Source: Mesorhizobium sp. STM 4661 | Lineage (GTDB): Bacteria; Pseudomonadota; Alphaproteobacteria; Rhizobiales; Rhizobiaceae | Length of the DNA: 64,000 nt | Direction of reading: 5' to 3' | NCBI RefSeq assembly: GCF_000359125.1 | Contig: NZ_CAAF010000073.1 | Location: 186,001-250,000, forward strand | Shown: positions 30,228 through 33,163 of the stretch, piece by piece | Layout: every line of letters starts with the position of its first letter | How positions within the stretch are numbered: position 1 is the first letter of the stretch | Position numbers and translations under genes: made by a program | The notes under the pieces: model-generated | The model's database searches: none | Told to the model about the DNA's origin: nothing | The model's input: the letters and a program-made list of their open reading frames with translations, nothing else

Positions 30228-31286
30228 TCAGTCGGGTATCAGGCAACCAGGATTCATGATGCCCAGCGGATCGAAAGCAGCCTTGATCGCGGCAATAGTT
30301 TTTCGGTGCTCCGGCGTCAGCCACTCCCAGTAGACTTCACGGCGGCTCCGGCCGACGCCATGCTCGGCGCTAAAAGAGCCAGAAAAGCCGCGAACGATGC
30401 CGTAGAGGCCGTCCAACAGGTCCGTGCCCCGCTCGCGCACCTCCCCGGCCGACAGGCCCGTCGGCGGCATGACGTTGAAGGTTGAAGTGGATGTTGCCGT
30501 CGCCGGCATGGCCGTAGGCGATAGGCTCCCAGCCGGGCCAGTTCGTCAGAACGTAGCTGCGGGACTTCTAGATCATCGGCGCCACATCGCTCAAGCGCAC
30601 GGACAGGTCGGTGCGGATGTGCCGGCCGCGTTTAGCCTGCCCTTCCACGAGGTCTTCGCGGATCGCCCAGAAGGCGCGCGCATGGGCGCGGCTCTGCGCG
30701 ATTGTGCCGTCTCCGAGCAGGCCGGCCGCGAACGCCTCGCCAAGCAACGCCTCGAGCAGCGCACGGCCGTCGATGGCGGAACTGCAGCCAAGCTCCATGA
30801 GGACATGCACCGGCCACTCGCCTTCCAGCGGCACCAGCGTTTCGGCGTTGCTCAACGTGGCAAACGCAATGCATTCGGAGCCGATCACCTCGAAGGCTGT
30901 CAAAAGGTCGGAGCACACGCGGCGCGCCATGCCGAACGCGCCATGGCGTCGGCGAAGGAACCCACGCCGAGATAGGCCGTCTCCACATTGGCTGGCCGTG
31001 GGAAAAGTTTCACTTCGACGCCCGTCACGATGCCCAGTGTTCCTTCCGACCCGATCAGAAGCTGCTTCAGGTCGTAGCCGCGGTTGTCCTTGCGCAGTCC
31101 GGTCATGCCTTCCCACAAGCTGCCGTCGGGCAGGACGGCTTCGAGCCCCAGAACGAGATCGCGCGTCATGCCGTAACGCAGCACGTTGATGCCGCCGGCA
31201 TTCGTGGCCACGTTGCCGCCGATCTGGCACGAGCCCTGCGCACCCAGCGCCAGCGGAAAGAGCATGTCCTCGGCATCGGCCGCATA
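30228..31286 (-). pseudogene. Broken FAD-linked oxidase (GlcD / D-lactate dehydrogenase type)
   Basis: Reads on the minus strand as QIGGNVATNAGGINVLRYGM, YDLKQLLIGSEGTLGIVTG, then SAEHGVGRSRREVYW and FDPLGIMNPG near the end, all of the GlcD/D-2-hydroxyglutarate dehydrogenase family. Damage seen: the N-terminal FAD part is missing, replaced at 31286 by a sugar permease piece; one base is lost near 30940; there is an in-frame TAG at 30570-30568; and a 7-bp tandem duplication GTTGAAG (30474-30487, plus strand) shifts the frame again. Four independent lesions make it certainly non-functional. Confidence 0.85.
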
Positions 31287-31478
31287 GCCGCCGATCATGC
31301 CGACATAGAAGGACGGCACGGAGATGATGGCGAGGCCGACCTGGATGACGGTGAGCAGCAGCACACCGCCCAGCACGCCGATAATGTTGCCACGCCCGCC
31401 AACCACGCTCACGCCGCCGATTATCGGCGCGGCAATGGCGTAAAGCAGGTAGCTGGAACCCTGGTTGGAGGTGATGGC
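31287..31478 (-). pseudogene. Internal fragment of an RbsC-type sugar ABC permease
   Basis: SNQGSSYLLYAIAAPIIGGV followed by GGRGNIIGVLGGVLLLTVIQ and a final VPSFYVGMIGG match the C-terminal third of ribose-type permeases. It is fused in frame to the FAD oxidase remnant downstream and bounded upstream by a plus-strand SDR fragment at 31481. The N-terminal piece of what may be the same gene lies at 32434-32628. Confidence 0.7.
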
Positions 31479-31480
31479 CC

Positions 31481-31600
31481 ATGAAGCGGATGGGCAGGCC
31501 GGACGAGATCGCGTCGGTCGTTCTCTTCGGGGCGTCCGACGCATCGAGCCTGATGACCGGCAGCATTGTCAGCGCCGACGTGGGCTACACCTCGATCTGA
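31481..31600 (+). pseudogene. C-terminal fragment of an SDR dehydrogenase
   Basis: The frame reads [20 protein letters not shown], then [16 protein letters not shown] and a stop. This is the standard SDR C-terminus, equivalent to GQPEEIAAAAVFLCSDAASY in the intact gene at 29418. Everything before it is absent. Confidence 0.7.
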
Positions 31601-31688
31601 GCCTTGGGAGTAGGTTCATGGCGATAGCTTTGGTTCTCGAAAAGAAGCGGGAACTCGCCCTTTGAAAGGATTCGGACCGAAGAAGAAC
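31601..31688. other. Short segment with no gene, possible dispersed repeat
   Basis: Between the SDR and MmgE/PrpD fragments. I see no gene. The sequence is reminiscent of dispersed intergenic segments of Mesorhizobium (from memory only), and the minus-strand MmgE frame stops inside it. Confidence 0.25.
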
Positions 31689-32433
31689 TCATGGGCGAGC
31701 CACTTCGGGATGAGGCCGGGCGAGCGCCATGAGAGCACCTGCATCTGTAAGATCGGCAAGGGTCCAAAGCGTGTCGGCAAGCGGAGCCACGGCGAGCGTC
31801 GGGCAGCCGTAATGCGCGAGCGCGGCAAATTTCTCTCTGAGCGCTGAGTCCGACATAGGTCGAGCAAGGCTGCCGGTTGCGGCTTTTTCGGTTACCTCGA
31901 CCGAAGAGCCGTCCGCATATCGGATCGAGACATGAGCGGCTTCGACCGGAGTGCCGGCATCGATCTCGACCGGGCGGACCTTGGCGCGCAGGGCCTTCAC
32001 TTGCGGATCGTTCACGGCGGCATCGCTGAATTCTTCGGCGCCCGCACGGCCGCGCAGCAGGCTGACGGCGACCGCATGCCGGGCGCTCACTTGCGCCTCG
32101 CGCCCCGTGGGTGACTTCGGGCCGATCGGCGCGGGCCTTGAGCAAGGGGGCACCGCGCACGACGACCTCTGCAATCCGGCCAGCGGAGAAATTGGGATTG
32201 GCGCGGGCAGTAAGGCAGGCATCGATCACAGGGTTTAGCACCACTCCGCAGGAGTAAGGCTTGAACATGTTGCGCAAGATCTCCCAATCCCTTCCCAGTC
32301 CGCCCTCGATCAGTTCGGGCCTTGGCTGGTCCGAGCAAACTTTCAGAAAGCCGCGCGGCCCTTCGAGCGGTTGCGGCGGCCCTTCGACACCGCATTGCGC
32401 CATCAGGGCCGAGACGAGACCGCCGCGGGCCGC
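31689..32433 (-). pseudogene. C-terminal part of an MmgE/PrpD family protein, frameshifted
   Basis: The minus strand reads GPRGFLKVCSDQPRPELIEG, GRDWEILRNMFKPYSCGVV, RIAEVVVRGAPLLKARADRP. An extra C near 32110 then shifts the frame and it continues as GREAQVSARHAVAVSLLRGR to ALREKFAALA. This is the C-terminal half of the MmgE/PrpD (2-methylcitrate dehydratase-like) family. Its N-terminus is missing, replaced by a sugar permease N-terminus in the same frame. Confidence 0.75.
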
Positions 32434-32628
32434 ATCGAGGTCTATCCCCCGGCCGATCACCACCAGCCCCATGCCGAGGCCGAGGATGCCGAGGATCGAG
32501 ACGCTGCGCACCAGCGCTATGAGGTTGCCGGCGGTCAGGAAATTGTTGAGCGTGACCGCGAATACCGCGAACATCGCAACGGCCAGTGCGAACACCACGC
32601 CCTCTTGCGACAATCGCGCCTTCCCCAT
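32434..32628 (-). pseudogene. N-terminal fragment of an RbsC-type sugar ABC permease
   Basis: From an ATG at 32628 with GGGAGG upstream, about 65 residues match ribose-type permeases: VVFALAVAMFAVFAVTLNNF, LTAGNLIALVRSVSILGILG and GMGLVVIGRGIDLD. It then runs in frame into MmgE/PrpD sequence. The start signals are intact, so a chimeric peptide could still be made. A permease this short cannot function. Confidence 0.7.
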
Positions 32629-32832
32629 TTTTTCGGACCTCCCAGACCGGCCGATGTCGATCCGCGGATGCGGACCTGCGCGATCGGCATCGAGCTGGAA
32701 CGAACATCCCTTTTTTGGAGAACCCGAGACAGACCCGTTGGTGGAATATCAGTTATGTTGGCTACCGGCCCTATCACGAAGAACGGCTAAGCGTGCGGGT
32801 GGGCGGCGGGGGCTTTAAGCACCGGGCAGGAT

Positions 32833-32927
32833 GCCAACCGGCTCTGGAACCGCGACGTCGTCTCGGACGCGCTGACGAATTGTCCCCGTTCCGAATCCTA
32901 TGCGTAATCGACGATTTCAGCCGGGAA
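32833..32927 (+). mobile_element. Remnant of an IS3-family transposase (OrfB)
   Basis: ANRLWNRDVVSDALTN in one frame, then FRILCVIDDFSRE in the next after a one-base loss. Together these match the conserved W-x-x-D-F-V-S-D-A-L...FRIL-x-V-x-DDF-x-RE core of IS3-group integrases. Only about 30 residues remain and no inverted repeats were found. It is a fossil that dates past insertion activity in this decayed stretch. Confidence 0.55.
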
Positions 32928-33163
32928 TGGTGGAACTTTCCAGCAAAAGCAAATGGTTGGCGGGTGGTTGGCCAAACCATGTCTTTCGTATGGTCTGGCG
33001 ACCCAAAGAAGAAACCCGACAAGTTCCCGGCCAATTTCGGCGTCAAAGGTTTCGAATAATATCTCTTAACATTTGCTAACGCCGTTGGGCCCCAAAATCG
33101 TCGATTGTCTGGTCAGAATGGCCGCGAAAGCGCGCTGTCACTGATAGTTCAGGAGATTTCGAC
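32928..33163. other. Intergenic stretch after the IS remnant
   Basis: No gene recognised. A frame continues to 33059 but has no family resemblance. The part 32930-33059 reads like a dispersed rhizobial intergenic segment (an impression from memory, unsearched). Confidence 0.25.

Follow-up and report, generated by a model that had tools for sequence, protein, structure and literature searches.

Positions 30228-32796 of the analysed stretch of Mesorhizobium DNA (the window, 64,000 nucleotides; bases 186001-250000 of the 289-kb contig 17 in a 6.5-Mb genome of 89 contigs) hold a string of gene stumps whose source loci are still intact in relatives. Genomes of the genus (n = 146), referred to here by G numbers, served for comparison, with few candidates scored per genome; G161 is Mesorhizobium sp. 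YC-39. A sequence-only reading had named an FAD oxidase, a permease, an SDR tail, MmgE and a permease N-terminal end, and had put the number of cut genes at "at least six". Alignments to relatives and Pfam matches recovered all five at the places given, and the count rises to seven within 30228-32929, with two further cut genes to the left of 30228 (Table 1). Overlooked in that reading was the head of a Zn-dependent alcohol dehydrogenase at 31618-31662. The scarred zone reaches leftward to ~28,932, around one intact SDR gene.

Table 1. Genes, gene remnants and junctions of the scarred zone, in window positions (percentages are identities)
Feature	Position	Strand	Evidence or remarks
Metallo-beta-lactamase-fold hydrolase, C-terminal stump	28932..29269	-	90% to G088 up to 29234
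SDR gene, 3' tail, followed by intact SDR as in G112/G002	29278..29417	+	
Intact SDR gene, 254 aa, between scars	29418..30182	+	ORF; NCBIfam SDR matches
FAD-linked oxidase without N-terminus	30228..31285	-	Frameshifts and one stop; FAD-oxidase_C, FAD_binding_4
Junction J1	31285..31286		Lacks 421 bp present in G134 (460 bp in G086); no bases shared
Sugar ABC permease A, C-terminal part, last residues also gone	31286..31479	-	92% to G134 154822-155013
Junction J2	31477..31479		Lacks 9,995 bp present in G134; microhomology of 3 bp, GCC
SDR gene, C-terminal tail including stop	31477..31601	+	Reading frame; the G134 gene is an SDR
Zn-dependent alcohol dehydrogenase, first 15 codons	31618..31662	+	MAIALVLEKKRELAL versus MPLALVLERKRELAL in G134
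Junction J3	31663..31671		Connects two donor loci; 9 bp between donor matches
MmgE/PrpD, C-terminal half including stop	31672..32435	-	End of MmgE_PrpD_N, and MmgE_PrpD_C
Junction J4	32435..32436		Lacks 22,316 bp present in G161; no bases shared at join
Sugar ABC permease B, first 64 codons	32436..32628	-	Upstream region continues to 32796
Junction J5	32797..32825		Leaves G161 parent; 29 bp before IS3 scrap
IS3-type transposase scrap, ~104 bp	32826..32929	+	82% to G145 and G102; G145 frame matches rve

Gene stumps and their intact counterparts

Each remnant could be assigned to a gene through its relatives. The hydrolase stump is 70% identical over 29019-29269 to its intact counterpart in G086 (C16), which matches Lactamase_B_2, and the stump at 28932-29269 of the window matched no Pfam family. 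The adjoining 29278-30183 is 79% identical to G112 and G002, and the translated SDR tail resembles the C-terminus of the G112 SDR. Further right, the FAD oxidase (30240-31285) is 89% identical to G134 153361-154400, the permease A stump 84-87% identical to G018 and G086, and the SDR tail with the alcohol dehydrogenase head (31477-31662) 89% identical to G134 165009-165193, where the intact alcohol dehydrogenase gene matches ADH_N and ADH_zinc_N. The MmgE/PrpD stump shares 90% with G161 and 91% with G073, and the permease B stump with its upstream region shares 96% with G161 41637-41995, the intact gene matching BPD_transp_2.

An IS3 fossil had also been proposed; it is present, limited to the ~104-bp scrap, which we take to be IS3-type from its FRILCVIDDFSRE motif, and what lies beyond it is other debris. 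Pieces to its right match several genomes at 71-81% (32936-33020) and G018 at 86% (33052-33135), and no Pfam family was matched in 32799-33056 (one of three frames).

Both chimeric joins are in frame, as the sequence-only reading had stated. ORF 31585-32628 (-) begins at the permease ATG and runs through 64 permease codons into MmgE, and ORF 30900-31544 (-) reads from the permease C-terminal end into the FAD oxidase. Since two in-frame joins have a chance of ~1/9 by simple arithmetic, the in-frame state means little. In the FAD oxidase part one base is deleted, 7 bp are duplicated in tandem and a stop is present, and in the MmgE part a 1-bp insertion shifts the frame, so that both chimeras are frameshifted further downstream of their joins; truncations, frameshifts or stops relative to intact relatives mark these remnants as pseudogenes. 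Working chimeric genes kept by selection would fit the two in-frame joins and the retained start and upstream region of permease B, but the permease A/FAD chimera has lost its permease start and both reading frames break downstream of the join; we therefore reject functional chimeras, a reading that we hold to be extremely unlikely. In a scan with the permease-MmgE chimera (best 80 loci of 83 relatives), the best long matches covered residues 12-156 of 156, at 67% in L113 and 63% in L116, and fell on MmgE in G073 and G067; these are probably loose matching upstream of MmgE rather than the scar.

Order and strand in relatives

The stumps derive from loci that can be followed in other genomes. 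At locus A of G134, the FAD oxidase, permease A and the SDR with the alcohol dehydrogenase head lie on one strand in window order at 89-92%, and in G086 the FAD, permease and SDR pieces occur in window order at 77-87%; order and strand are kept in two of the two genomes with all three pieces on one contig. G018 has the permease and SDR together in window order, and its FAD match is on a different contig. Locus B of G161 comprises the block corresponding to window positions 23522-28069, MmgE and permease B, on one strand and in window order at 90-96%. In G073 this block lies in order with MmgE, as in G161, with MmgE ~13 kb from the left block. MmgE and permease B also share a strand in G067, G094, G141 and G153, about 29-34 kb apart.

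Among the 10 genomes listed with MmgE and permease B on one contig, same and opposite strands are divided 5:5. The opposite-strand genomes (G007, G015, G093, G106 and G121; MmgE at 72-73%, permease B at 76-85%) indicate that locus B also rearranges by inversion. MmgE identity is higher in the colinear genomes (77-90%) than in the opposite-strand genomes (72-73%). G140 has the two genes on different contigs. At each locus there are intact relatives with which the window pieces are colinear and same-strand, the arrangement expected of deletion in place.

Locus A was adjacent to locus B, or to the G112-like SDR pair, in no genome examined. The left end, the right end and J3 could therefore be insertions rather than deletions, and since J3 joins two loci nowhere seen adjacent, a deletion step at J3, like the former adjacency of the loci, is something that we infer. 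The repeated deletions proposed by the sequence-only reading are thus supported by these alignments at J1, J2 and J4, where the pieces are colinear, on one strand and intact in relatives, and may be extended to the other joins by inference.

Junction sequences

Alignment to strains with the intact loci mapped the deletion ends at J1, J2 and J4 at base level. The breaks that had been noted near 31286 (permease into FAD oxidase), 31479 and 32434 (permease N-terminus into MmgE/PrpD) correspond to J1, J2 and J4, each right within 2 bp. Microhomology, which had been suggested as a thing to look for at all three, occurs at J2 as the 3-bp overlap and is absent (0 bp) from J1 and J4. The hexamer CATTGC adjoins the J4 break in both G161 parents, and J4 may possibly represent a match of 6 bp from which 2 bp were trimmed away.

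At J1, J2 and J4, neither an IS end nor a long repeat was visible on inspection of the window and of ~30-50 bp of parent sequence on each side. A repeat scan of the window returned just short repeats, 15-29 nt long and imperfect; one, of 19 nt (84%), spans J1. With 0, 3 and 0 bp shared and no IS end or long repeat, the earlier suggestion that repeats or lost IS copies drove the deletions finds no support at these three junctions, neither as IS-mediated deletion nor as repeat recombination. It is only past the rightmost stump that the IS3 scrap appears. The scrap does sit 30 bp past the point where the permease B match stops, and the genome has many dispersed short repeats; these points, with the imperfect repeat across J1, are what IS- or repeat-driven deletion has in its favour. 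The stretches inspected at the junctions in window and parents argue against it, as does the position of the IS3 match, internal to the transposase frame, and we regard it as quite unlikely.

Junctions of this kind fit end joining with near-zero homology. The genome encodes Ku in three places and the LigD Prim-Pol domain in three, and Ku and LigD may have joined the breaks, an attribution that we make tentatively, their presence being circumstantial; replication slippage would leave junctions that look the same.

Age of the decay

To date the decay, changes since the split between window and parent were polarised with outgroups (G086 for FAD and permease A, G094 for MmgE and permease B, G018 for the SDR tail) and assigned to codon positions 1, 2 and 3. 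On the window branch these numbered 10, 6 and 24 in FAD, 3, 3 and 20 in MmgE, 0, 0 and 1 in permease B, 2, 0 and 8 in permease A, and 1, 3 and 0 in the SDR tail; on the parent branch, 14, 7 and 21, 7, 3 and 19, 0, 0 and 4, 0, 0 and 5, and 0, 0 and 3, respectively. Summed as positions 1+2 against position 3, the window branch (28:53) resembles the parent branch (31:52), and it therefore seems that selection acted on the genes during most of the period after the split. The neutral share is estimated at ~0, with a resampled range of -0.40 to 0.20 for the first-choice outgroups and parents only.

Other choices shift these figures somewhat. With G067 as outgroup, MmgE gives 4, 4 and 19 on the window branch and 4, 2 and 22 on the parent branch, and the sums change to 30:52 and 26:55, a slightly less clean result that would allow a somewhat higher neutral share; with G073 as parent, MmgE gives 2, 3 and 16 (window) and 8, 6 and 17 (parent). 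Taken alone, the SDR tail (1, 3, 0) is not coding-like. These substitution patterns suggest that the genes died recently. The FAD and MmgE parts have gathered only a small number of disabling changes.

Uniqueness of the scar and fate of the missing DNA

A genus search with the 2,061-base query 31100-33160, in which two candidates were scored per genome, gave a full-length match only in the window's own genome among the matches listed from the 146 genomes. Some match at 1e-20 was found in 110 of the 146, and the matches listed from the others each span one piece. The exact 23-base join at J2 was found in none of the genome contigs scanned, a set that possibly left the window's own genome outside.

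We searched the window's own genome with parts of the missing sequence. For 5,100 of the 9,995 bases of locus A, the long matches were distant homologues only, at 66-71%; for 14,400 of the 22,316 bases of locus B they were likewise distant, at 66-72%, besides a dispersed 72-bp repeat. By these matches, the missing sequence appears to be absent from the genome for the parts searched. The 72-bp repeat (L060:9223-9294) lies within the G161 stretch that is lost here and accounts for 38 of the 50 own-genome matches listed; the window contains no copy of it.

Two other sources for the pieces were considered and rejected. Templated copying from elsewhere in the genome would require better donors than the other own-genome matches listed, which are short and just 71-78% identical (FAD part, 71% over 284 bp and 73% over 204 bp; permease B, 78% over ~97 bp); for 32780-33520 the own-genome matches listed include no second copy close to identity. 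As to a plasmid origin, none of the 434 plasmid records with a match reached 80% query coverage, the top-ranked reaching 16%, and 32790-33160 had no match among plasmid records.

Origin of the scar

We consider deletion in place to be very probably the best explanation. A run of sugar-catabolism genes (ABC transporter, FAD oxidase, SDRs, Zn-alcohol dehydrogenase), lying beside the MmgE/permease locus, would have ceased to be needed, and under such relaxed selection several deletions, from 0.4 to about 22 kb and presumably one after another, would have eroded both loci where they stood. The broken ends, sharing hardly any sequence, would have been rejoined, most likely through end joining, for which the genome encodes Ku and LigD in three places each; what was left would be short stumps that keep the ancestral order and orientation.

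One rival explanation is a single burst, in which many simultaneous breaks left few surviving pieces that end joining stitched together in one event. It would account for larger pieces that all look young, for stumps of ~190 bp persisting between large losses and for the union at J3 of loci not seen side by side, and the multiple Ku and LigD genes would fit it too. Against it, ancestral order and orientation are kept within each locus, which random stitching would yield about 1 time in 200 by our estimate, and the separate indels in FAD and MmgE indicate that piecemeal decay took place too. Such a burst is improbable, and a shade more so is a chromosome-shattering burst whose order and orientation were kept by multi-copy Ku/LigD at a site of repeated breakage in relatives such as G088. 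Mis-joined contigs are very unlikely: the assembly is a draft in 89 contigs and some of the indels are single bases, but among the own-genome matches listed none is a second, nearly identical copy of a piece, the searched missing parts show no close counterpart on any contig, the window lies inside its 289-kb contig, and the pieces carry disabling mutations.

Relation to known systems

Deletion in place, as proposed for this locus, is genome decay of an ordinary sort, here mapped in unusual detail, and the kind of event is well known. A report on Xenorhabdus poinarii (PMC4079199) describes accessory regions lost through large deletions under deletional bias, with small remnants of formerly intact genes; the loss of accessory regions and the gene remnants are alike in both, whereas here stumps from two or three loci stand back to back, with base-level junctions, in a 6.5-Mb genome. 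For rhizobial end joining, another report (PMC10932983) gives deletions that are mostly 1-6 bp long and in a few cases reach 343 bp, small-plasmid end-joining deletions without microhomology, and multiple ku and ligD genes in each S. meliloti genome. The near-absent homology and the several Ku/LigD copies are shared with the present case, but its deletions, of 421 bp to 22 kb, are far above those repairs. In Pseudomonas aeruginosa, large chromosomal deletions arise by end joining, promoted by MutL, in phage defence (Shen et al., 2018, as cited in PMC7719229); end joining closes large deletions both there and in our proposal, although the MutL/phage-defence trigger of that case (PMC7719229) has none shown to correspond to it in Mesorhizobium here. 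No literature on this locus was found by title under Mesorhizobium pseudogenes, rhizobial end joining, short-repeat deletions or gene remnants, in a search mostly outside subscription journals.

The locus offers a base-level record of how a rhizobium may shed unused catabolic islands through large, recent deletions nearly free of homology. Its natural junctions can serve for asking if soil bacteria lose genes in ways shaped by end joining, and its fused stumps are of a kind that annotation software could call as odd genes.

Turnover at the site and neighbouring regions

To the left of the scarred zone, window positions 3557-28069 form a long block that is colinear at 91-93% in G073 and partly so in G161 and G088. 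Matches to G161 and G073 stop at 28069; those to G102, G124 and G158 go on to about 28.9 kb, and that to G088 extends to 29234, the point at which the G088 hydrolase gene is cut, at another base than in the window. The site beyond 28069 seems prone to turnover. G088 has a scar of its own (L085:16883-17080), in which a 66-aa frame, without a matching Pfam family, is fused, out of frame, with this hydrolase gene.

Several other segments of the window differ in their distribution. At 12110-12213 lies a ~100-bp dispersed repeat, palindromic-looking, which is missing at the same site in G073, where its flanks are adjacent. A response regulator and histidine kinase pair with a downstream ORF (33519-36409), possibly acquired, has an E <= 1e-100 match only in the window's own genome among the 146, and the ~12.4 kb of 45280-57648 has E <= 1e-200 matches, at 83-84%, in just 2 others of the 146.
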